Positions 54,672 to 64,000 of a stretch of DNA of 64,000 nucleotides are shown one piece after another. The notes beneath the pieces are model-generated. The model was not told the DNA's origin. It worked only from the letters and a program-made list of their open reading frames with translations, and did not search any database. The first letter of the stretch is position 1. Each line of letters begins with the position of its first letter. The stretch spans positions 62,001-126,000 of the forward strand of contig JACRPA010000006.1 in NCBI GenBank assembly GCA_016214145.1, read 5' to 3'. Position numbers and translations under genes: made by a program. The DNA is from Rhodocyclales bacterium. Lineage in GTDB: Bacteria; Pseudomonadota; Gammaproteobacteria; Burkholderiales; Rhodocyclaceae.

Positions 54672-55976
54672 ATGGCGGAAGGCATCCTTGATCGCATGAA
54701 GAGCCTGGTCGGCGGCAAGCGCGAGCGCGCGCCGCTGAAGGGAAAGGAACTTGCGCAACTGCGCCAGCAGTTGCGCGAGTGCGCCGCCGGCACCGGCGGC
54801 GAGGTCTCGGCGCGCAACCGCGCGGCGAAGCTGGGCGAGACTTACCTCGGCCTGGACGATGCCGGGCGGCACGAGTTCCTGCGCCGCATCGCCCTCGATT
54901 TCGGCCCCGAGCCGGAGAAGGTCGAGGCCGCCCACCGCGCCTACCAGGCGGCGGCCGGCACGCCCGGCCAGTGGGACGCCGAGGCCGATCTGCGCGCCGC
55001 GCTGCGCTCCTCGCGCATCCGGATACTCACCCAGTTCAACGCCTTGCCGCAGGGCGTCAAGTTCCTCGTCGACCTGCGCAGCGACCTGCTGCGCTTCCTC
55101 GACAAGGACGAGGAGCTGGCCGTGCTCGACCGCGAGCTGGAGTCGCGCCTGACGGCCTGGTTCGACGTCGGCTTCCTCGAACTGCAGCGCATCACCTGGC
55201 ATTCGCCCGCCTCGCTGCTGGAAAAGCTCATCCAGTACGAGGCGGTGCACGAGATCCGCTCCTGGAACGACCTGCGCAACCGGCTCGACTCCGACCGCCG
55301 CCTCTACGCCTTCTTCCACCCGCGCATGCCGCAGGAGCCGCTGATCTTCGTCGAGGTGGCGCTGACGAGGGAACTCTCTTCCAACATCCAGGAACTGCTC
55401 GACGAACATGCGCCGGTGTTCGATCCGGCGCGCGCCGACACGGCGATCTTCTACTCGATCTCGAACACCCAGCCGGGCCTGCGCGGCGTCAGCTTCGGCA
55501 ACTTCCTGTTGAAGCGCGTCATCGACGACCTGAAGCGCGACTTCCCGCAATTGAAGACCTTCGCCACGCTTTCGCCGCTGCCGCAGTTCGCCGCCTGGCT
55601 GAAGCGCACGCCGGAGGCGCAGGAGGGTCTCGGCCTGACGCTCGCGCAATTGCAGTCGGGCGAGTGGGCGCAGGACAAGGCGCAGGCCCGCCGCCTGCGC
55701 GATGCGCTGGAGCGCCTCGGCGCCCGCTACCTCTACGCCGTCCGCCAGAACGGCCGCCCCTACGATCCGGTGGCGCGCTTCCACCTCGGCAACGGCGCGC
55801 GCATCGAGCGGCTCAATTTCCTGGCGGACGCCTCGGCCAAGGGCTTCAAGCAGTCCTGCGGCCTGATGGTGAATTACTTGTACGATCCGGAAGAGATCGA
55901 GCAGAACGTCGAAGCGTATGTCGGCGAGGACCGCATCGCGGCCTCGGCGGCGGTGCGCCGGCTGGCAAGAACTTGA
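54672..55976 (+). CDS. matA: Malonyl-CoA decarboxylase
   Basis: Converts malonyl-CoA to acetyl-CoA and CO2. The 434-residue protein has an N-terminal helical domain and a C-terminal GNAT-like catalytic domain. The conserved block AIFYSISNTQPGLRGVSFGNFLLKRV includes the catalytic serine region, and VARFHLGNGARIERLNFLADAS the catalytic His371. WHSPASLLEKLIQYEAVHEIRSW is also family-specific. It is preceded by the crotonase and followed by a TRAP transporter, the expected set for malonate use. Confidence 0.93.
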   Translation: MAEGILDRMKSLVGGKRERAPLKGKELAQLRQQLRECAAGTGGEVSARNRAAKLGETYLGLDDAGRHEFLRRIALDFGPEPEKVEAAHRAYQAAAGTPGQWDAEADLRAALRSSRIRILTQFNALPQGVKFLVDLRSDLLRFLDKDEELAVLDRELESRLTAWFDVGFLELQRITWHSPASLLEKLIQYEAVHEIRSWNDLRNRLDSDRRLYAFFHPRMPQEPLIFVEVALTRELSSNIQELLDEHAPVFDPARADTAIFYSISNTQPGLRGVSFGNFLLKRVIDDLKRDFPQLKTFATLSPLPQFAAWLKRTPEAQEGLGLTLAQLQSGEWAQDKAQARRLRDALERLGARYLYAVRQNGRPYDPVARFHLGNGARIERLNFLADASAKGFKQSCGLMVNYLYDPEEIEQNVEAYVGEDRIAASAAVRRLART

Positions 55977-56004
55977 CACAACCACAACGAACGGAGGAGA
56001 CGAC

Positions 56005-57027
56005 ATGAACGCACGACGCACCATCCTGGCCGCTGCCCTGGCCACTGCCTGCCTGGCCCTGCTCGGGTCCCCGGCTTTTGCACAGGCGCCGAAGATCCTG
56101 AAAATCTCGCACCAGTTCCCCGGCGGCACCATCGACGAGGGCGATTTCCGCGACCGCATGGTGCGCAAATTCGCCGCCGAGGTGGAGAAGCGCACGAACG
56201 GCCAGCTCAAGTTCGAGATCTATCCGGCCGGCTCGCTGGTCAAGCCGGTGGAGCAATGGGGCGCCATGGCCAACGGCTCGCTCGACCTGTCCCTCTATCC
56301 CCTGGCCTATGCCGGCGGGCGCGTGGCGGAACTCAACATCGGCCTGATGCCGGCGCTGGTGACGAGCTACGAGCAGGGCCTGCGCTGGAAGGACGCGCCG
56401 ATCGGCAAGGAGCTCACGCGCATCGTCGAAGAGAAGGGCGTCAAGATCATCACCTGGGTGTGGCAGGCCGGCGGCATCGCTTCGCGCGGCAAGCCCATCA
56501 TCGCTCCGGACGACGTCAAGGGCCTGAAGTTCCGCGGCGGCAGCAAGGAGATGGACATGATGCTCAAGGCCGCCGGCGCCTCGCCGACGAACGTGCCCTC
56601 CAGCGAGATCTACAGCGCCATGCAGTCGGGCGTGCTCGACGCGGCGCTGACCTCCAGCACCTCGCTCATCTCCTTCCGCCTGCACGAGCACGCCAAGCAT
56701 GTCACCACGTCGCGCGACAAGACCTTCTGGTTCATGTTCGAGCCGATCATGATGTCCAAGGCCAGCTTCGACAAACTGACGCCCGAGCAGCAGAAGATCG
56801 TGCTGGAGGTGGGCGCCAGCCTGGAGAAATTCGGCATGGAGGCCGCCCGCGTCGACGACCAGAAACTGGCCACCGTCTACACCCAGGCGGGCGACGGCGT
56901 GCATGACATGAACGAGGCGGCCTTCGCCAAGTGGCGCGACATCGCCAAGGCCTCGGCGTGGAAGGATTTCGAGGAGAAGGTGCCGAACGGCAAGAAGCTG
57001 CTCGAGATGGCCGTATCTGTGAAGTGA
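56005..57027 (+). CDS. dctP: TRAP transporter substrate-binding protein DctP
   Basis: A 340-residue periplasmic binding protein. The signal is MNARRTILAAALATACLALLGSPAFA with cleavage after AFA. The mature DctP domain has KISHQFPGGTIDEGDFRDRMVRKFAAEVEKRTNGQLKFEIYPAGSL, WVWQAGGIASRGKPI, KGLKFRGGSKEMDMMLKAAGASPTNVPSSEIYSAMQSGVLDA and the conserved carboxylate-binding Arg in that GLKFR stretch. Genes around it indicate malonate or another dicarboxylate as substrate. GGAGGA precedes the ATG by six bases. Confidence 0.93.
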   Translation: MNARRTILAAALATACLALLGSPAFAQAPKILKISHQFPGGTIDEGDFRDRMVRKFAAEVEKRTNGQLKFEIYPAGSLVKPVEQWGAMANGSLDLSLYPLAYAGGRVAELNIGLMPALVTSYEQGLRWKDAPIGKELTRIVEEKGVKIITWVWQAGGIASRGKPIIAPDDVKGLKFRGGSKEMDMMLKAAGASPTNVPSSEIYSAMQSGVLDAALTSSTSLISFRLHEHAKHVTTSRDKTFWFMFEPIMMSKASFDKLTPEQQKIVLEVGASLEKFGMEAARVDDQKLATVYTQAGDGVHDMNEAAFAKWRDIAKASAWKDFEEKVPNGKKLLEMAVSVK

Positions 57028-57035
57028 GCGGCGCT

Positions 57036-57560
57036 ATGGCGGCAATCTGGCGGGCGTTCGCGCGGGCGCTTGCCGCGCTCAACTTGTGGATGGGCTACGC
57101 CGCAGGCGTGCTGGTGGCCGTCTCCGCCCTGCTGCTGACCTGGGAAGTGCTGATGCGCTACTTCCTCGGCTCCCCGAGCGACTGGGCGCTGGAGCTGTGC
57201 ATCCTCATGCTCATCGCCTCGACCTTCCTGGCGGCGGCCTATACGCTGGCGGCCAAGGGACACGTCAATATCGACATCGTCGATGCGGCATTTTCCGCCG
57301 GCGCGAATCGCTGGCGGCTGCTGCTCGCCGATGCGGGGGCGGCGGGTCTGTGCGGCTTCGTCGCCGCCAACGCCTGGCGGCTCACCGCCGTGGCCTGGAG
57401 TGAAGGCTGGGTGAGCAATTCCACCTGGGGGCCGAAGCTGTGGATCCCCTTCGGCTTCATTGCCCTGGGCATGAGCCTGCTGACCCTGCAATATCTGGTG
57501 CAGATCGTCGATGCGCGGCTGGCGCCGATCCTGGCGGGAGGTCGCAATGGGCGTGCTTGA
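57036..57560 (+). CDS. dctQ: TRAP transporter small permease DctQ
   Basis: A 174-residue membrane protein with four segments, the first MGYAAGVLVAVSALLLTWEVLMRYFLG. Family features are RYFLGSPSDWALELCILMLIASTFLAAAYTLAAKGHVNIDIVD and LWIPFGFIALGMSLLTLQYLVQI. It starts 9 bases after dctP and overlaps dctM by 14. It connects DctP delivery to the large permease DctM. Confidence 0.9.
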   Translation: MAAIWRAFARALAALNLWMGYAAGVLVAVSALLLTWEVLMRYFLGSPSDWALELCILMLIASTFLAAAYTLAAKGHVNIDIVDAAFSAGANRWRLLLADAGAAGLCGFVAANAWRLTAVAWSEGWVSNSTWGPKLWIPFGFIALGMSLLTLQYLVQIVDARLAPILAGGRNGRA

Positions 57561-58875
57561 AATCGGTTTCCTTTACATGGGCGCGGCGCTGCTGCTGCTC
57601 TTCTCCGGCATGCCCATCGCCTTCGCCCTCGGCGGCGTGGCGCTGGCCTTCATGTTCGCCTTCATGCCGGCCAACAACCTGGAGAACATCACCGAGACGC
57701 TCTACAGCGAGCTGAACAACTTCACCCTGCTGACTATTCCGCTCTTCATCCTGATGGGCGCGGCCATCGGCAAGACGCGGGCGGCGGCCGACCTCTACGA
57801 GGCGGCCCACCGCTGGCTCTACAAGGTGCCCGGCAGCCTCGGCGTGGCCAACATTTTCGGCTGTTCGGTGTTCGCCGCCATGTGCGGCTCCAGCCCGGCC
57901 ACCTGCGCCGCCATGGGCGGCATGGGCATCCCGGAAATGAGAAAGCGCGGCTACTCGGAGGAACTCGCCAGCGGGCTGATCGCCGCCGGCGGCACGCTGG
58001 GCATCCTCATCCCGCCTTCGCTGACGCTGATCATCTACGGCATCATCACCGAGCAGTCGATCGGCAAGCTGTTCATCGCCGGCGTCATCCCCGGCATCCT
58101 GCTCGCCGTGATCTTCGCCCTCTGGGTGATGCTCGCCGCCTCGCGCGAGAAGGCGGCGGCGCGCGAAGGCCGCGCGGCGAGCGAACTGCTGAAGGCCGAG
58201 TTCTTCAGCTGGAAGGAACGTCTGCAGACGCTGCCGCGCCTGCTGCCCTTCGTGGTGCTGATCGCGGTGGTGATGGTCGCCCTCTACGACGGCTGGGGCA
58301 CGCCCTCGGAGGTGGCGGGCGTGGGCGCGGCCGGCGCCCTCGTCCTGGTGGTGGGCATCTACGGCGTCTGGCGCTGGCGCGACATGAAGGAGATCCTGCT
58401 CGGCACGGCGCGCGAGTCCTGCATGATCATGATGATCATCGCCATGGCCTTCCTGTTCACCTACGTCATGAGCTACCTGCACATCACGCAGAGCATGGCG
58501 CAGTGGCTGGTCGGGCTGGGCCTGTCGAAGTGGGCCTACCTGTTCTGGGTGAACATCCTGCTGCTGGTGCTCGGCTGCTTCCTGCCGCCGGTGGCCATCA
58601 TCCTGATGGTGACGCCGGTCATCATGCCCGGGATACTCGCGGCCGGCTTCGATCCCATCTGGTTCGGCATCATCCTCACCATCAACATGGAGATGGGCCT
58701 CATCACGCCGCCGGTGGGCCTCAACCTCTTCGTCATCAACGGCATCGCGCCCGACATCACCTTCCGTCAGATCATGCGCGGCGTGATGCCCTTCATCGTC
58801 ATCATGGGGCTCTACATCGTGCTGCTGGCGCTCTTCCCGGAGATCGTCATGTGGCTGCCCCAACAAGCGAAGTAG
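57547..58875 (+). CDS. dctM: TRAP transporter large permease DctM
   Basis: A 442-residue sodium-coupled permease with about twelve segments. Family signatures are LLLLFSGMPIAFALGGVALAFMF, NIFGCSVFAAMCGSSPATCAAMGGMGIPEMRKRGYS, GTLGILIPPSLTLIIYGI and MGLITPPVGLNLFVINGIAP. It begins MGVLEIGFLYMG, 14 bases inside dctQ. It is followed by a palindromic gap and the CoA ligase gene. It would carry out symport of the dicarboxylate delivered by DctP. Confidence 0.95.
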   Translation: MGVLEIGFLYMGAALLLLFSGMPIAFALGGVALAFMFAFMPANNLENITETLYSELNNFTLLTIPLFILMGAAIGKTRAAADLYEAAHRWLYKVPGSLGVANIFGCSVFAAMCGSSPATCAAMGGMGIPEMRKRGYSEELASGLIAAGGTLGILIPPSLTLIIYGIITEQSIGKLFIAGVIPGILLAVIFALWVMLAASREKAAAREGRAASELLKAEFFSWKERLQTLPRLLPFVVLIAVVMVALYDGWGTPSEVAGVGAAGALVLVVGIYGVWRWRDMKEILLGTARESCMIMMIIAMAFLFTYVMSYLHITQSMAQWLVGLGLSKWAYLFWVNILLLVLGCFLPPVAIILMVTPVIMPGILAAGFDPIWFGIILTINMEMGLITPPVGLNLFVINGIAPDITFRQIMRGVMPFIVIMGLYIVLLALFPEIVMWLPQQAK

Positions 58876-58899
58876 AAATACACATGGGGAAAGCAGGTC

Positions 58900-58990
58900 A
58901 CCACGGCGTGCACGGCGATCACGGCGAAACAACGGCAAATAGGATGGGTTTTTTGTTGTATTTGCGCCGTGTCGCCGTGCACGCCGTGGT
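58900..58990. repeat. Palindrome of tandem CACGGCG units (dctM-matB gap)
   Basis: The left arm, from 58900, reads ACCACGGCGTGCACGGCG followed by ATCACGGCG and more; the right arm is the inverse, ending CGTGCACGCCGTGGT at 58990. The arms pair over roughly 30 bases around the loop AGGATGGGTTTTTTGTTG. It fills most of the 132-base gap ahead of the ligase start at 59008. Confidence 0.88.
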
Positions 58991-59007
58991 TCAAATGGTT
59001 TTTTCTG

Positions 59008-60525
59008 ATGAACGATAACCTCTACGCCATCCTCGCCGCGCGCTTTCCGCACAACCCCGACGCGCCCTGCCTGATCCTGCCCGACGGCCGGCGGATTTCC
59101 TACGCCGAACTGGAAAGTCAGTCTGCGCGATACGGCAATCTGCTGATCGAGGCCGGCGTCAAGCCGGGCGACCGCGTCGCCGCCCAGGTGGAGAAGTCGC
59201 CCGAGGCGTTGTATCTGTATCTCGGCTGCCTGCGCGCCGGCGGCGTCTTCCTGCCGCTGAACCCGGCCTACCAGCGCGGCGAGATCGAATACTTCCTCGG
59301 CGACGCCAAGCCGGGCCTGTTCGTCTGCCGGCCGGAAAAACTGGAAGAGGCGCAGGAACTGGCCTGGGCGACGCGGGTGCCGCTGGTGCACGACCTCGGC
59401 GAGCGCGGCGACGGCAGCCTCGTCGCGGCGGCTGCGGAAATGCCGGATCGCCTCGACACGGTCGAATCCGCCGGCAGCGACCTGGCTGCCATCCTGTACA
59501 CCTCCGGCACCACGGGCCGCTCGAAGGGGGCGATGCTGACGCACCGCAACCTGGCCGCCAACGCGCTCGTGCTGCACCAATACTGGGGCTTCCGCCCGGG
59601 CGACGTGCTGCTGCACATGCTGCCGACCTTCCATGTGCACGGCCTCTTCGTCGCCACGCACTGCGCGCTGGCGAACGGCAGCCCGATGCTGTTCGAGCCG
59701 AAGTTCGACGCGCCGCGCGCCCTGCGGCTGATGCGGGAGGCGACGGTGTTCATGGGCGTGCCGACCTACTACGTGCGGCTGCTGCAGGAGCCGGGATTGA
59801 CGCGGGAAGCCGTGGCGCACATGCGCCTGTTCGTCTCCGGCTCGGCGCCGCTGCTGCCGGAGACCTTCGCCGCCTTTCGCGAACGCACCGGCCAGACCAT
59901 TATCGAGCGCTACGGCATGACCGAGGGCGGCATGTTCACCTCCAACCCACTGGACGGCGAGCGGCGCGGCGGCACGGTCGGTTTCCCCTTGCCGGGCACG
60001 GAGGTGCGCGTAGTGGGTGAATCAGGCAAGTTGCTGCCGGCCGGGGAGATTGGCCACATCCAGGTGCGCGGCCAGAATTCCTCCAGCGTCTTCGCCGGCT
60101 ACTGGCGGATGCCGGAGAAGACGCAGGAGGAGTTCACGCCGGACGGGTACTTCCGCACCGGCGACATGGGCCGCTTCGACTCAGATGGTTACCTCGCCAT
60201 CATCGGCCGCGACAAGGACCTCATCATCAGCGGCGGGCTCAACGTCTATCCGAAGGAGATCGAGGAAGCCATCGACGCCCTGCCCGGCGTGGCGGAATCC
60301 GCCGTGATCGGCCTGCCGCATCCCGATTTCGGCGAGGCGGTGACCGCCGTGGTGGTGCGCGACCGGAATGGCGCCGGCCTCAGCGCCGAGGGCATCATTG
60401 CCGCCCTGAAGGGTCAAATCGCCGGCTTCAAGGTGCCGAAGGCCGTGCATTTCGTGGAAGACCTGCCGCGCAACACGATGGGCAAAGTGCAGAAGAACCT
60501 GCTGCGTCAACGTTTTTCCGCCTGA
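59008..60525 (+). CDS. matB: Malonyl-CoA synthetase (acyl-CoA ligase)
   Basis: A 505-residue ANL-superfamily ligase making malonyl-CoA from malonate, ATP and CoA. Motifs are ILYTSGTTGRSKGAMLTHRN (ATP phosphate loop), ERYGMTEGGMFTSNPLDGERRGGTVGFPLPG, GYFRTGDMGRFDSDGYLAIIGRDKDLIISGGLNVYPKEIEE and PRNTMGKVQKN with the catalytic lysine. The length and SNPLDGERRGGTVGFPLPG segment resemble MatB. Substrate is inferred from neighbours MatA-type decarboxylase and TRAP transporter. It is the last gene of the operon. Confidence 0.88.
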   Translation: MNDNLYAILAARFPHNPDAPCLILPDGRRISYAELESQSARYGNLLIEAGVKPGDRVAAQVEKSPEALYLYLGCLRAGGVFLPLNPAYQRGEIEYFLGDAKPGLFVCRPEKLEEAQELAWATRVPLVHDLGERGDGSLVAAAAEMPDRLDTVESAGSDLAAILYTSGTTGRSKGAMLTHRNLAANALVLHQYWGFRPGDVLLHMLPTFHVHGLFVATHCALANGSPMLFEPKFDAPRALRLMREATVFMGVPTYYVRLLQEPGLTREAVAHMRLFVSGSAPLLPETFAAFRERTGQTIIERYGMTEGGMFTSNPLDGERRGGTVGFPLPGTEVRVVGESGKLLPAGEIGHIQVRGQNSSSVFAGYWRMPEKTQEEFTPDGYFRTGDMGRFDSDGYLAIIGRDKDLIISGGLNVYPKEIEEAIDALPGVAESAVIGLPHPDFGEAVTAVVVRDRNGAGLSAEGIIAALKGQIAGFKVPKAVHFVEDLPRNTMGKVQKNLLRQRFSA

Positions 60526-60631
60526 CCCGTTTTATTTGAGTATTAAATAATTCGCTGTCCCGGCGGCGTAACGGGGCGTATCGTGTGTTTCACTGTGCCG
60601 GCGAGCACAGGTTCCAACGGAGGAGGTTGCC

Positions 60632-60775
60632 ATGCGTCATGAAATCCGGGAGAACCCGGTCAGCCCGTGGAAGCACAAGGCCAAGGTGCTCGTTGCCTTT
60701 CTGGCACTTTGCCTGGTCGCGGCATTCTCCGGCATCGGCTTCGCGGCCGAGCTGCCGAGTCAGATCTTCAGGTAA
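60632..60775 (+). CDS. Small predicted exported protein (47 residues)
   Basis: A short gene preceded by GGAGGAGG (60619-60626) five bases before its ATG. The product is 47 residues: a charged N-terminus (MRHEIRENPVSPWKHKAK), a hydrophobic stretch (VLVAFLALCLVAAFSGIGF) and a signal-peptidase-like AA-E junction that would leave only ELPSQIFR. Its 3' end overlaps the convergent anti-sigma gene by 16 bases. It may be a real small peptide, a single-pass membrane protein, or the remnant of a truncated secreted protein. I know no family for it. The 100 bases upstream show no clear promoter. Confidence 0.5.
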   Translation: MRHEIRENPVSPWKHKAKVLVAFLALCLVAAFSGIGFAAELPSQIFR

Positions 60776-61458
60776 GTCCAGCCCTGGCGCACCCGGTCGA
60801 CGATGTGCTCGACCGCGGTGCGCTCCACCCTTGCTTCCGGCACCAGCGTGACATCCAGTCCGGCACTGCGATAGCGTGCGATGGCGTTGCCGCAGGCGAC
60901 GAAGGCCAGCATTTCGTGGCGCGCGGCGAGTGCCGCGATGCGCGCCGCATGGGGCGTGGCTTCCTGGCGCAGCAGGTCGAGGCCGGAGTTATTGACCACG
61001 ACCTCCACCCGGGCATGGCTGGCCTTGGCCAGATAGGCTTCGACCATATCCAGCGCCTCTTCCATGCGTTCCGCCTGCGAACTGTCCAGATGCAGCAGCA
61101 CGCGCGTCGGCTGGGGGGCAAACAGGCTTCCCACCCAGGCCAGCGCCGGTTCGGAGGATGAGACGGTTGCGCGATGGCCCTGCCAGCCGAGCAGCACGCC
61201 GGCGACCAGCGCCAGGCTCGCCGCCAGGGCGCCGCTCCAGAAGGAAATATGGCTATCCCGCTTGCGGCGGGCAGCCGGCACCTGGCCATAGGCATGGCGC
61301 ACCAGTTCCTTGGTGGAGCGCAGCGCGCAAAGTCGCTGGCCCAGTTCGGCATCCTCGGCGATGGCGGCAAGAACTTCCTCGCGCTCCTGGGCGCCGAGCT
61401 GGTTGTCGACGAAGGCGTTCAGGCGTTCGTCGGAAAAACTGTTTCTTGCATCGTTCAT
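60760..61458 (-). CDS. Membrane anti-sigma factor with C-terminal DsrE-like domain
   Basis: A 232-residue protein. Residues 1-65 form a short anti-sigma-like helical domain (FSDERLNAFVDNQLGAQEREEVLAAIAEDAELGQRL) without the H-x3-C-x2-C zinc motif. One membrane segment spans residues 72-91. Residues 118-232 form a periplasmic domain (RVLLHLDSSQAERMEEAL, VEVVVNNSGLDLL, FVACGNAIA with Cys189, RVRQGWTYLKI) that matches the DsrE pattern of the two exported proteins 1-2 kb away. It overlaps the sigma gene by 4 bases (start ATG 61458). It should hold the ECF sigma until a periplasmic signal is sensed. Confidence 0.8.
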   Translation of the reverse strand: MNDARNSFSDERLNAFVDNQLGAQEREEVLAAIAEDAELGQRLCALRSTKELVRHAYGQVPAARRKRDSHISFWSGALAASLALVAGVLLGWQGHRATVSSSEPALAWVGSLFAPQPTRVLLHLDSSQAERMEEALDMVEAYLAKASHARVEVVVNNSGLDLLRQEATPHAARIAALAARHEMLAFVACGNAIARYRSAGLDVTLVPEARVERTAVEHIVDRVRQGWTYLKI

Positions 61459-61994
61459 TTCACGCTCCTCAGGCGCGGCTGCGCCGCCGCCGGTTCGAGC
61501 AATCCGCGCAGAGCCTCGCGCGCGCGGCACAGCCGGCTCATGACCGTGCCGATGGGAATCGCCAGCACCTCGGCGACTTCCGCGTAGGAAAACTCCTCCA
61601 GGTCGACCAGGGTGACGACCTGTCGCTGTCCGAGCGGCAGCCCCGCAATGGCGGCCCGCACGCGGCTGACCGTCTCCTGCAGTTCGGCGAGGCCTTCAGG
61701 TCCGGGCAGATCCGAGGGCAACTCGGCCAGCGCCTCCTCGTCCAGATCCTCGCGCCGGACGCGCAGATGGTCGATCCAGCAGCGGTGGAGGATCGAGAAC
61801 AGCCAGCTCGCCAGCCGCTCGGCCTGGCGCAACTGGTCGATCCGGGCCAGGCCGCGCGCCAAGGCCTCCTGCGCCAGGTCGTCGGCGAGGGTCGCGTCGT
61901 GGCACCACGAGAAGGCGACGCGATAGAGCCGGCCCCGGCTCGCCTCGATCTTCCCGGACAGTTCGCGCTGCGCCCGCGTCTGCAACCATTTCAT
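61455..61994 (-). CDS. ECF-type RNA polymerase sigma factor
   Basis: A 179-residue sigma-70 of the ECF class. Region 2 is seen as LYRVAFSWCHDATLADDLAQEALARGLARIDQLRQAERLASWLFSILHRCWIDHLRVR. Region 4 is LPLGQRQVVTLVDLEEFSYAEVAEVLAIPIGTVMSRLCRAREALRGLL, with the helix-turn-helix for the -35 element. GGGAGGA lies before the ATG. The gene is followed by a coupled anti-sigma gene. An ECF-like promoter element (62044-62019) lies just upstream, suggesting autoregulation. Confidence 0.93.
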   Translation of the reverse strand: MKWLQTRAQRELSGKIEASRGRLYRVAFSWCHDATLADDLAQEALARGLARIDQLRQAERLASWLFSILHRCWIDHLRVRREDLDEEALAELPSDLPGPEGLAELQETVSRVRAAIAGLPLGQRQVVTLVDLEEFSYAEVAEVLAIPIGTVMSRLCRAREALRGLLEPAAAQPRLRSVK

Positions 61995-62018
61995 CGGCTT
62001 TTCCTCCCGTCACATTAT

Positions 62019-62044
62019 GACGCAGCAGGCCATGGTTTTATTCC
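62019..62044 (-). promoter_or_regulatory. ECF-type promoter element for the sigma/anti-sigma pair
   Basis: Read on the minus strand, GGAATA (62044-62039) is followed after 16 bases by CGTC (62022-62019). GGAA(T/C)-type -35 and CGTC-type -10 boxes with 16-17 spacing are usual for ECF sigma factors. The start would be near 62012, with the sigma ATG at 61994. Confidence 0.65.
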
Positions 62045-62060
62045 ACGGTTGCGGGCCTCG

Positions 62061-62086
62061 GGAATAAACCGGACCCGGCCGCCGTC
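62061..62086 (+). promoter_or_regulatory. ECF-type promoter element for the exported DsrE-like genes
   Basis: GGAATA (62061-62066), a 16-base spacer, then CGTC (62083-62086): identical boxes and spacing to the element on the opposite strand at 62044-62019. The two -35 regions form an inverted repeat (GGTTTTATTCC at 62034-62044, GGAATAAACC at 62061-62070). The start would be near 62093, giving a leader of about 65 bases to the ATG at 62159. Confidence 0.65.
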
Positions 62087-62158
62087 TTACTCATTGCCGC
62101 CGCCAGATGCCATGACCAAGAGCCGGCGCCCACTTACGCCCACCAGAGAGGAGGCACC

Positions 62159-62584
62159 ATGATTCGCAGAACCTTCATCCATTTCCTTGCCGCCTGTGCG
62201 GTTTTTGCCCTGGGCGCGGCCCCGGCCTTGGCGCAGAAAGCCAAACAGGGCGTCGTCATCCAGGTCAGCGACGGCGATCCAAAGAGCTGGAACCAGGCGC
62301 TGAATGTCATCAAGAACGTCCAGACGGAATACGGCAAGGACAATGTGGCCATCGAGCTCGTCGTGTTCGGCTACGGATCGGGGATGCTCAAGTTCGACTC
62401 GCCGCTCGCCAACCGCATCGACGACACCCTGGCCGGCGGCGCGCAGGTGCTCATGTGCGAGAACACGATGAAGGGTCAGAAGCTCACCAATGCCGACATG
62501 CATCCGAAGATCGGCTACGTCAAGGCCGGCGTCATCGAGATCATCGAAAAGAGCAGACAGGGCTGGACCGTGGTGCGGCCGTAA
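62159..62584 (+). CDS. Exported DsrE-family protein 1
   Basis: A 141-residue secreted protein. The signal is MIRRTFIHFLAACAVFALGAAPALA, with cleavage after ALA. The mature domain has the DsrE order: GVVIQVSDGDPKSWNQALNVIKNV, the nucleophile strand AIELVVFGYGSGML, QVLMCENTM with Cys100, and the C-terminal KSRQGWTVVRP. GAGGAGG precedes the ATG. Its C-terminus and cysteine position match those of the anti-sigma periplasmic domain (RQGWTYLKI, Cys189). DsrE-type proteins carry persulfide sulfur in the cytoplasm; a periplasmic copy implies a redox or sulfur role there (inference). Confidence 0.85.
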   Translation: MIRRTFIHFLAACAVFALGAAPALAQKAKQGVVIQVSDGDPKSWNQALNVIKNVQTEYGKDNVAIELVVFGYGSGMLKFDSPLANRIDDTLAGGAQVLMCENTMKGQKLTNADMHPKIGYVKAGVIEIIEKSRQGWTVVRP

Positions 62585-62615
62585 TCGACAGGCACCTTGT
62601 GTGAAAGGACTCGAA

Positions 62616-63077
62616 ATGGCGCATTTCAGCGTGGCACAGCGTTCCCTGATGATCGTCCTTGCGATGTTTGCCGCTGCCGCCTGCGCCACCGGCCAGGGAG
62701 ACATGGCCGCAAAGGCGAAGGAGCCGAACAAGGTCATCTACCACATCAATGAAGGACTGGAGCAGGCCAGCAACGGCTTGCGCAACATCCGCAACCATCT
62801 TGAGGCCGACCCGACCGCCAGGATCGTCGTCGTCACCCACGCCGGTGGCATCAACTTCCTGCTGGAAGGGGCCAAGGACAAGAACGGCAATCCCTACGAT
62901 GCGGCGGTAGACGACTTGTCGATGAAGGGCGTCGAATTCCGCGTCTGCAACTTCACGCTGCAGAGCCGCAACATCGACAGGAGCAAGGTGCACTCCGAGG
63001 CGAAGATCGTGCCTTCCGGCGTGGCGGAAGTCGGCCGCCTGCAGTCCAAGGAAGGATTCGCCTATCTCAAGCCCTGA
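62616..63077 (+). CDS. Exported DsrE-like lipoprotein 2
   Basis: A 153-residue protein 31 bases after DsrE-like protein 1 on the same strand. The N-terminus MAHFSVAQRSLMIVLAMFAAAAC is a lipoprotein-type signal with Cys23 (lipobox AAAC, slightly atypical). The DsrE-like core reads KVIYHINEGLEQASNGLRNIRNHL, RIVVVTHAGGINFLLEGA, then FRVCNFTL with Cys111, and ends EGFAYLKP, matching the C-terminal WTYLKI/WTVVRP of its neighbours. Upstream open frame before ATG 62616 is shadow. Confidence 0.8.
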   Translation: MAHFSVAQRSLMIVLAMFAAAACATGQGDMAAKAKEPNKVIYHINEGLEQASNGLRNIRNHLEADPTARIVVVTHAGGINFLLEGAKDKNGNPYDAAVDDLSMKGVEFRVCNFTLQSRNIDRSKVHSEAKIVPSGVAEVGRLQSKEGFAYLKP

Positions 63078-63190
63078 GGCGGATTGAGGGCGGCCGGGAC
63101 GATCCCGCCGTCAGCATGGTCATCGCAGCCACACCGACGGCGATTGCGCGACAATACGGACGTTGCACAATCGCCGAATGGAGAACATGA

Positions 63191-63964
63191 ATGAAGTGGC
63201 TGCGTTTCGCGCATGAAGGCAAGACTGGTTTTGGCGTTCTTGACGGTGACACGGTGGTTGTCCACGACGGGGACATGTTCGGTTCAGCCACGCCAACCGG
63301 CGAGCGCATCGCGGACACGGCCATCCAATGGCTGACGCCGTGCGTGCCGGGCAAGATGATCGGCCTGTGGAACAACTTTCGCGCCGCCGCGGAGAAGAAC
63401 GGCTGGGCGATTCCTTCCGAGCCGCTGTACTTCCTCAAGGCCGCCAGTTCCTTCTGCGCTCACCACCAGCCGATCCTCGCCCCGCAATCCTGCGATGGAC
63501 GGGTCATCTACGAGGGCGAACTGGCCATCGTCATCGGCCGGACGGCCAGCCGCATCACCGAAGCGGAGGCGCCTGCCCACATCTTCGGCTACACCTGCGC
63601 CAACGATGTCACTGCCATGGAGCTGATTCAGCGCGACCCGGGCTTTCCGCAGTGGGCGCGCGCCAAGAGCTTCGATACATTCGGGGTGTTCGGGCCGGTG
63701 ATTGAAACCGGCTTCGATCCGGGGCAGGGCGAAGTCGTCGTGCTGCTGAACGGCCGCGAGCGCCAGCGCTATCCGCTGGCCGACATGATCTTCCCGCCCG
63801 CCCGGCTGGTGTCGCTGATTTCGCAGGACATGACGCTCCATCCCGGCGACGTGATCCTGTGCGGGACCTCGCTCGGCGTGCTGCCGATGAAGCCGGGCAC
63901 CGCCGTGGAAGTCGTCATCGAAGGCATCGGCAAATTGTCGAACGAGTACCGCGCCACGGTGTAG
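63191..63964 (+). CDS. Fumarylacetoacetate hydrolase family protein
   Basis: A 257-residue protein with the FAH C-terminal fold. The metal-binding acidic residues are Glu108 and Glu110 in IYEGELAIVIG and the Asp in TCANDVTAMELIQRD. AKSFDTFGVFGPVIE, ISQDMTLHPGDVILCGTSLGVLPMKPG and a C-terminal EGIGKLSN complete the signature. Members hydrolyse or decarboxylate 2-keto acids from aromatic or homoprotocatechuate catabolism, or hydrolyse acylpyruvate. The exact substrate is open. It is not clearly part of the DsrE operon; a 113-base gap separates them. Confidence 0.9.
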   Translation: MKWLRFAHEGKTGFGVLDGDTVVVHDGDMFGSATPTGERIADTAIQWLTPCVPGKMIGLWNNFRAAAEKNGWAIPSEPLYFLKAASSFCAHHQPILAPQSCDGRVIYEGELAIVIGRTASRITEAEAPAHIFGYTCANDVTAMELIQRDPGFPQWARAKSFDTFGVFGPVIETGFDPGQGEVVVLLNGRERQRYPLADMIFPPARLVSLISQDMTLHPGDVILCGTSLGVLPMKPGTAVEVVIEGIGKLSNEYRATV

Positions 63965-64000
63965 GCGGCGCGCGTCTTTTCAGCCGCGCGGGCTTGGCGC

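Follow-up and report, generated by a model that had tools for sequence, protein, structure and literature searches.

A predicted sulfur-responsive anti-sigma factor of ECF26 type with a periplasmic DsrE domain

Introduction

Can a cell turn a sulfur carrier into a sensor of the sulfur on its outside? This question is raised by an anti-sigma gene in a stretch of 64,000 nucleotides from Rhodocyclales bacterium GCA_016214145.1 (contig JACRPA010000006.1, positions 62,001-126,000), which we call the window and within which all coordinates below are counted; residue numbers are those of the window's anti-sigma factor. The gene is paired with that of a sigma factor of the extracytoplasmic function (ECF) class, and its product ends in a DsrE domain that is predicted to be periplasmic. 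The reading that we favor, with a probability of about 0.62, is that this is an ECF26-type membrane anti-sigma factor whose periplasmic sensor domain was exchanged for a DsrE domain, giving a sulfur-responsive periplasmic switch in which a sulfur carrier may serve the cell as a sensor of outside sulfur. We favor it because of the fold of the domain, its invariant Cys, the pairing with the sigma factor, the ECF26-type promoters, the secreted DsrE targets and the linkage to sox genes. Sigma factors with this promoter consensus have previously been linked to sulfite and thiosulfate metabolism (PMC3511301, PMC6527743), and a 2024 paper describes the sensing of external sulfur by regulators of sulfur oxidation as poorly understood (PMC11582611).

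Results

The periplasmic half of the anti-sigma factor is a DsrE domain

The anatomy, fold, conservation, synteny and promoter motif of this system were all established by computation. Its genes and protein parts in the window are:

60760..61458, minus strand: anti-sigma factor, 232 amino acids, with a cytoplasmic anti-sigma domain, one membrane helix and a periplasmic DsrE domain
61285..61434, minus strand: cytoplasmic anti-sigma domain, residues 9-58, with helices at 10-17, 23-35 and 37-58
61183..61245, minus strand: membrane helix, about residues 72-92
60763..61107, minus strand: periplasmic DsrE-fold domain, residues 118-232
60892..60894, minus strand: codon of Cys189, the sole Cys of the periplasmic part
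61327..61329, minus strand: codon of Cys44, on the cytoplasmic side
61455..61994, minus strand: cognate ECF sigma factor, 179 amino acids, with Sigma70_r2 and r4_2 domains (Pfam)
62159..62584, plus strand: secreted DsrE-like protein, 141 amino acids, predicted target (Pfam, BLASTP; signal sequence by eye)
62616..63077, plus strand: second secreted DsrE-like protein, 153 amino acids, predicted target (Pfam; signal sequence by eye)

The anti-sigma reading frame initiates at the ATG at 61458 on the minus strand, and this start codon overlaps the stop of the sigma reading frame. Residues 71-91 are the most hydrophobic of the protein (the top 19-residue hydropathy windows run from 71-89 to 73-91), and the AlphaFold2 (AF2) model has a helix at 73-99. 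Because a basic RRKR directly precedes these hydrophobic residues, the positive-inside rule predicts a cytoplasmic N-terminus and a periplasmic location for residues 118-232.

When residues 118-232 are searched alone, they match Pfam DsrE with E=6.7e-5 and 23.5 bits, above the cut-off of 22.7, while the entire anti-sigma factor scores 20.8 bits and falls under it. In the PDB, MTH1491 is found by phmmer with E=2.4e-7 and by the family profile with 1.5e-14, and structure comparison gives a clear match of the periplasmic domain to the DsrE/TusD/YchN fold. Cys189 terminates strand 184-189 ahead of a helix in the model, as is expected of the conserved cysteine of PF02635, and it aligns with a Cys of MTH1491 and with a Cys of each secreted DsrE protein.

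An earlier note on this DNA had proposed one membrane segment at residues 72-91, which the hydropathy windows and the AF2 helix bear out, and a DsrE-like region at residues 118-232, on which the profile search and the structure comparison, both named beforehand, agree. It had also likened this region to the DsrE proteins at 62159 and 62616. The likeness stands for the first (BLASTP 2e-6, 23% over 115 positions, RQGWT included) and fails in pairwise comparison for the second, which has no BLAST similarity to the anti-sigma factor (E=9.0), although Pfam identifies it, too, as a DsrE protein (E=8.1e-9).

Two other explanations were considered and rejected. A chance resemblance to DsrE is ruled out by the agreement of fold, profile and conservation, and an accidental joining of two genes by gene calling or assembly is ruled out by 128 full-length fusions (117 distinct, at 126 loci) and by the single clade that the fused domains form. 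A tree was built from 118 fused and 90 secreted rows thinned to 46 and 33, and in it the fused DsrE domains make up one clade relative to the secreted DsrE proteins with support of 100/100, in an alignment for which the tool warned of few columns; this clade would be consistent with a single fusion event.

The fusion is conserved and paired with its sigma gene

Residue conservation was counted over 117 distinct full-length proteins, one of them that of the window, after 6 partial matches had been set aside. Cys189, Asp18 and Gly91 are each present in all 117, followed by L21 and Tyr229 (116 each), Cys44 and Trp227 (115 each), Arg164 (113) and His123 (107). Immediately upstream of the anti-sigma gene is a sigma gene in 116 of the 117, the sole exception being at a contig edge, and for 109 proteins the estimated anti-sigma start is 20 nt or less before the end of the sigma gene.

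Matches at E 1e-5 are found in 58 of 399 genomes of the order, 6 of the 58 being partial or weak. Across the phylum the profile is matched at 1e-8 by 31 of 398 genomes, full-length in three only (G000, G020 and G043), with the remaining matches covering the N-terminal half alone or the C-terminal half alone. Carriers include Thiobacillus denitrificans RG, Sulfuriferula multivorans TTN, Parasulfuritortus cantonensis LSR1 and Guyparkeria hydrothermalis R3. Among the best 80 of 230 relatives from a contig scan with one N-terminal pattern, 36 (counted by hand from titles, a few bins contributing two loci) are titled Thiobacillus, Sulfuritalea, Sulfuriferula, Parasulfuritortus, Thiogranum, Halothiobacillus, Guyparkeria, Thioalkalivibrio or Thiohalobacter, genera known as sulfur oxidisers; the other 44 are from Rhodocyclaceae, Hydrogenophilales and other, mostly beta- or gammaproteobacterial bins.

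A tandem duplication is seen at L054 and L084, where dsrE, sigma, anti-sigma, sigma, anti-sigma and dsrE genes follow one another in one run.

Two predicted back-to-back promoters separate the anti-sigma operon from the secreted DsrE genes

The sigma/anti-sigma pair is divergent from the two secreted DsrE genes, and the 164-bp gap between them contains two predicted promoters:

62017..62044, minus strand: predicted ECF26-type promoter of the sigma/anti-sigma operon, GGAATAA-N15-CGTCAT
62061..62088, plus strand: predicted ECF26-type promoter of the secreted-DsrE operon, GGAATAA-N15-CGTCTT

Across the 3.42-Mb genome, GGAATA-N16-CGTC has no copies besides these two; the finding is notable for where the sites lie, both within a single 164-bp gap, and not for how many there are. 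The window motif fits the published ECF26 promoter consensus, which was experimentally derived as GGAAT at -35 and CGTC at -10 (PMC6527743; for related work on Sinorhizobium meliloti RpoE1 and RpoE4 see PMC3511301). In 93 regions upstream of sigma genes, partly from the same or related genomes, GGAAT-N15-19-CGTC is directed toward the sigma gene in 60 (dinucleotide-shuffle mean 0.8) and away from it in 62 (mean 0.97), and the spacing is 17 in 114 of the 123 motif sites. A secreted-DsrE-cluster gene is the nearest divergent neighbor of 57 of 94 sigma genes, and 37 of these 57 regions have the motif in both directions; the locus sets partly overlap (L110 and L114 are one region), and the motif and neighbor counts are not independent.

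The N-terminal half is shared with anti-sigma factors that have a different sensor half

The zinc motif HxxxCxxC is absent from the N-terminal domain, as had been proposed earlier: G40 stands at the His position and R47 at the second Cys position, with only the first Cys (Cys44) retained. This is not unusual, since about 44% of class I anti-sigma domains lack the motif (PMC7406223). Pfam zf-HC2 matches weakly at residues 11-34 (E 0.031, 14.8 against 22.2 bits) and does not reach the cysteine part, and the RseA_N profile matches 1 of 30 relatives (E 0.0059). No anti-sigma domain is among the structure matches listed, in a comparison for which the N-terminal fold was not taken on its own. A far stronger relationship is obtained by hhalign against an alignment (A2) of eight anti-sigma factors that lack a DsrE domain, six from phylum genomes outside the order and two from the order, with E=1.4e-19 over the N-terminus and membrane helix only. 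Together with the sigma gene that is directly upstream in 116 of 117 cases, this upholds the earlier description of the N-terminus as anti-sigma-like, and homology and gene pairing thus support the assignment of the window protein as an anti-sigma factor.

The hhalign alignment ends after the membrane helix, and the C-terminal half has no homology to the A2 proteins. Two of the eight come from loci L185 and L190. The anti-sigma gene of L185 is located between a sigma gene and a gene for a SorT sulfite dehydrogenase (NF052247, 654 bits against 570) that has GGAAT/CGTC upstream of it, and its product is matched by the DsrE-type family profile at 9e-14 over positions 9-106 only. The anti-sigma gene of L190 comes after DUF305 and beta-propeller genes, an arrangement like that described for Starkeya novella RpoE1 (PMC6527743). 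By gene make-up and motif, L185 and L190 are probably ECF26 loci. The modelled L190 anti-sigma factor has a beta-rich C-terminal domain, in which six beta strands are flanked by helices, and this half has a weak resemblance to RseB (best E 1.1e-3). Further loci with non-DsrE anti-sigma factors are L182-L187, L128 and L129. Because homology ends at the membrane helix while the C-terminal halves differ, DsrE in one type and, in the L190 model of the other, beta-rich, the comparison indicates that the sensor half is exchanged at the membrane boundary. Cys44, which is near-invariant in the DsrE-type proteins, is absent from all eight A2 proteins.

The predicted regulon and its link to sox genes

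Neighborhood genes were taken from a codon-usage caller that merged or missed some, such as the anti-sigma gene of L115, and were labelled by eye, with representatives of SoxY, SoxZ, SoxA, SoxX, SoxB, YeeE, DUF255 and DsrE confirmed by Pfam or NCBIfam. In the 57 other carrier genomes there are 94 strict-pattern sites as compared with 19 reversed-pattern sites. At the sigma locus itself are 44 of the 94, in 33 genomes, and 14 of the 50 distant ones precede a sigma, DsrE, sox, porin-like or DUF255 cluster gene (start uncertain at L213 and L249). For example, genome G248, from the window's family, has one site 25 nt upstream of soxY, in a sox cluster some 120 kb away from the sigma locus, and a second site 53 nt upstream of an unlinked secreted dsrE gene; the identities of SoxY, SoxZ and DsrE were confirmed.

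The soxB gene (TIGR04486, E 1e-50) is present in 56 of the 58 carrier genomes as compared with 132 of 341 others, or in 50 of 52 as compared with 138 of 347 when the six partial or weak carriers are dropped, and the two carriers that lack it are genomes of 91% and 66% completeness. At least 14 of the 58 carriers have soxB within 5 kb of the anti-sigma gene. The pair lies within a sox cluster at L112, L113 and L115 (gene identities confirmed for L112), heads soxYZ..B at L116-L119 and is divergent from the sox cluster at L120-L124. In the window's genome soxYZAXB, recognized by similarity to the sox genes of relatives, is on another contig, and dsrA is present above cut-off with DsrE-family genes behind it. 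The genomic context of the DsrE-type anti-sigma factor therefore points to sulfur, and a sensor role is supported by this context through the sox genes, the promoter motif and the hosts.

Further sites were seen that stand apart from the sigma locus. At L230/L231 (G344:C19, about 98.8 kb) back-to-back motifs lie between porin-like and secreted DsrE-type genes, with the sigma locus on another contig, and in G043 and G261 (L240 and L242) an unlinked DUF255 gene has the motif 28 and 53 nt upstream.

Other neighboring genes

A thioredoxin-like DUF255 gene is near the system in 24 loci, including L073, L055 and other Thiobacillus-type loci. In 27 loci there is a secreted-looking conserved protein of about 455 amino acids that appears porin-like by eye (e.g. 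L057:2736-4103) and often adjoins the DsrE gene; the porin label is a guess, the single member scanned having no Pfam or NCBIfam match. At L058, L062, L063, L070, L087, L101 and L109 a large glnE-like gene adjoins the system and there is no divergent secreted DsrE gene (by eye), and a groEL-like gene, also named by eye, is beside this variant where the contig extends far enough. On the other side of the window's anti-sigma gene are TRAP-type transporter-like and acyl-CoA ligase-like genes (55918-60525, names by eye), which are common to some close relatives only and probably outside the system. No Rfam family was found within 58000-64000 at the gathering threshold.

Discussion

A model for the switch

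Binding of the sigma factor, the ligand, the chemistry at Cys189 and release are the steps of our model that we infer. Homology and gene pairing suggest that the N-terminal three-helix domain very probably sequesters the co-encoded sigma factor at the membrane. The DsrE domain would, on balance, sense reduced or intermediate sulfur species by means of Cys189, with His123 and Arg164 as candidate anion-binding residues. More tentatively, and at slightly less than even odds, Cys189 could become covalently loaded with sulfane sulfur or a thiosulfonate that comes from polysulfide, tetrathionate or thiosulfate-derived sulfur, by analogy with DsrE3A, whose Cys accepts a thiosulfate group from tetrathionate (PMC4175335). 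Direct loading is favored because a DsrE-type Cys can be loaded, as in DsrE3A, and because an S. novella ECF26 sigma factor is active during growth on tetrathionate (PMC6527743). Loading would free the sigma factor through either a conformational change or proteolysis. The freed sigma factor would very likely activate both promoters of the divergent gap, that of its own operon and the one that serves the secreted DsrE genes, and in relatives there is a good likelihood that it also activates sox, porin-like and further dsrE genes.

A more elaborate version of this switch is a sulfur relay, in which the secreted DsrE carriers would hand periplasmic sulfane sulfur or thiosulfonate to Cys189, so that the carried sulfur atom is the signal and the activated sigma factor drives production of further carriers and, in many relatives, of the Sox machinery. 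Cys44 would then let the switch also monitor sulfur or redox conditions in the cytoplasm. We consider such a relay unlikely.

Alternative explanations

The secreted DsrE proteins could also be read by the switch. The DsrE domain would in that case be a docking platform that forms mixed oligomers with them and responds to their loading or abundance, as RseA does with RseB. This would fit the divergent secreted-DsrE-cluster gene at 57 of 94 sigma genes, the dsrE-directed motif in 50 of those 57 loci, the aligned Cys in the window's secreted DsrE proteins and the hetero-oligomers among solved relatives (DsrEFH and TusBCD entries). However, some lineages lack the divergent dsrE gene (L058, L062, L063, L070) and yet have an invariant Cys189, and the secreted DsrE proteins resemble targets more than inputs, which leaves docking rather doubtful. 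The signal might also be sulfite, as in the ECF26 systems RpoE4 and SigE, with the DsrE pocket binding or reacting with it. Indeed, the promoter consensus and the N-terminal homology are common to the SorT-linked locus, which is of the sulfite-responsive type, but the sensor half is precisely the part that differs from SorT-linked loci, and the neighbors of DsrE-type loci are sox, yeeE and dsrE genes. Given also that a second ECF26 sigma factor, SnRpoE1, responds to tetrathionate (PMC6527743), sulfite appears to be an improbable signal.

It is very improbable that the DsrE domain is a structural relic in a switch that answers general envelope stress through anti-sigma proteolysis. An HtrA-like gene (by eye) is near the system in 26 loci, and DegS-like proteases act on RseA-type anti-sigma factors. 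Retention of Cys189 in 117 of 117 proteins would, however, hardly be expected of a relic, the protease-like gene adjoins petABC-like genes in Thiobacillus-type loci (by eye) and probably has an unrelated context, and the genes identified downstream of the motif are of the dsrE, sox, porin-like and DUF255 kinds.

Several observations weigh against the sulfur-responsive switch that we favor. Regarding the protein, Pfam DsrE at E 0.01 is passed by only 6 of 30 relatives, and a DsrE fold alone would not prove sulfur binding. Solved anti-sigma domains match weakly (PDB: RseA E=0.11, MucA E=0.15), single-sequence BLAST of the window anti-sigma factor with the SorT-linked one of L185 is not significant (best E 0.18), and the sigma factor, whose ECF26-type label is provisional, falls short of the cut-off of its best NCBIfam model, PRK12511 (111.7 bits against 185). 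As to the motif, the reversed control of GGAATA-N16-CGTC also has 2 matches in the window's genome, where that of a stricter pattern has 0; the strict pattern is absent from 13 of the 57 other carrier genomes, and 36 of the 50 distant sites are not clearly ahead of a gene of an expected kind. The genomes are related, so neither the soxB association, which is uncorrected for lineage, nor the motif counts are made up of independent cases, and soxB also occurs in 132 genomes that lack a DsrE-type anti-sigma gene. In the sox cluster of the window's own genome the motif is missing, and near-copies are no more frequent than expected (8 matches with up to 2 mismatches, 10.9 expected). Because of this absence, the direct regulon in the window's genome may be only the two divergent operons.

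Significance and comparison with known systems

The proposed switch is a concrete candidate for the sensing of external sulfur: it comprises a single membrane protein whose only periplasmic Cys is invariant, a defined sigma factor, a defined promoter motif and a short list of targets, and it occurs in named isolates. For sox-linked pathways of beta- and gammaproteobacteria it supplies a candidate regulator, and it suggests that an ECF anti-sigma factor can have its sensor half exchanged at the membrane boundary with the promoter type and metabolic theme kept. The earlier note had considered such a sensor novel. This applies to the DsrE periplasmic half and to the link with sox and secreted DsrE genes, but not to the tie of such ECF sigma factors to sulfur, which was already known. 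We found no DsrE-domain anti-sigma factor in the titles, listed abstracts and selected passages of the open-access PMC literature, a scope outside of which lies the main ECF reclassification, which may list one.

The ECF26 systems of S. meliloti (RpoE1/RpoE4) and S. novella (SigE, RpoE1) have the same GGAAT/CGTC consensus, a co-encoded membrane anti-sigma factor and, likewise, a tie to the oxidation of sulfur compounds; ECF26 was tentatively tied to thiosulfate oxidation and shown to be sulfite-responsive (PMC3511301). Our comparison of the anti-sigma factors was made with the A2 loci. At such loci of ECF26 make-up, in other genomes of the phylum, the anti-sigma factors have an N-terminal half homologous to that of the DsrE-type protein but a different periplasmic half, and they have no Cys44 and no DsrE domain. 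The published ECF26 targets are sorT and sorAB, and the predicted ones here are dsrE and sox.

The periplasmic domain has its fold in common with PF02635 (MTH1491, ST0148, YchN, DsrE of DsrEFH, TusD), and MTH1491 also has the conserved Cys position and the C-terminal GW-Y strand. However, solved PF02635 chains are single-domain, whereas the DsrE domain in the window is predicted to be periplasmic, tethered to the membrane and fused to an anti-sigma domain. RseA and MucA likewise have a non-zinc helical cytoplasmic domain, a single membrane helix and a periplasmic tail, with weak profile similarity. Their tails bind a separate sensor protein (RseB or MucB), whereas the tail here is itself a folded DsrE domain. 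SoxR/SoxT1B of Hyphomicrobium denitrificans also regulates sulfur oxidation in response to sulfur compounds (PMC11582611), and YeeE-like genes are likewise beside some DsrE-type anti-sigma loci. There, a transporter-like membrane protein serves the transcriptional repressor SoxR (PMC11582611), in contrast to the periplasmic sensing by way of a sigma factor that is predicted here. Thus, what is known in this system is the promoter type and the anti-sigma domain, and what is new is the sensor module.
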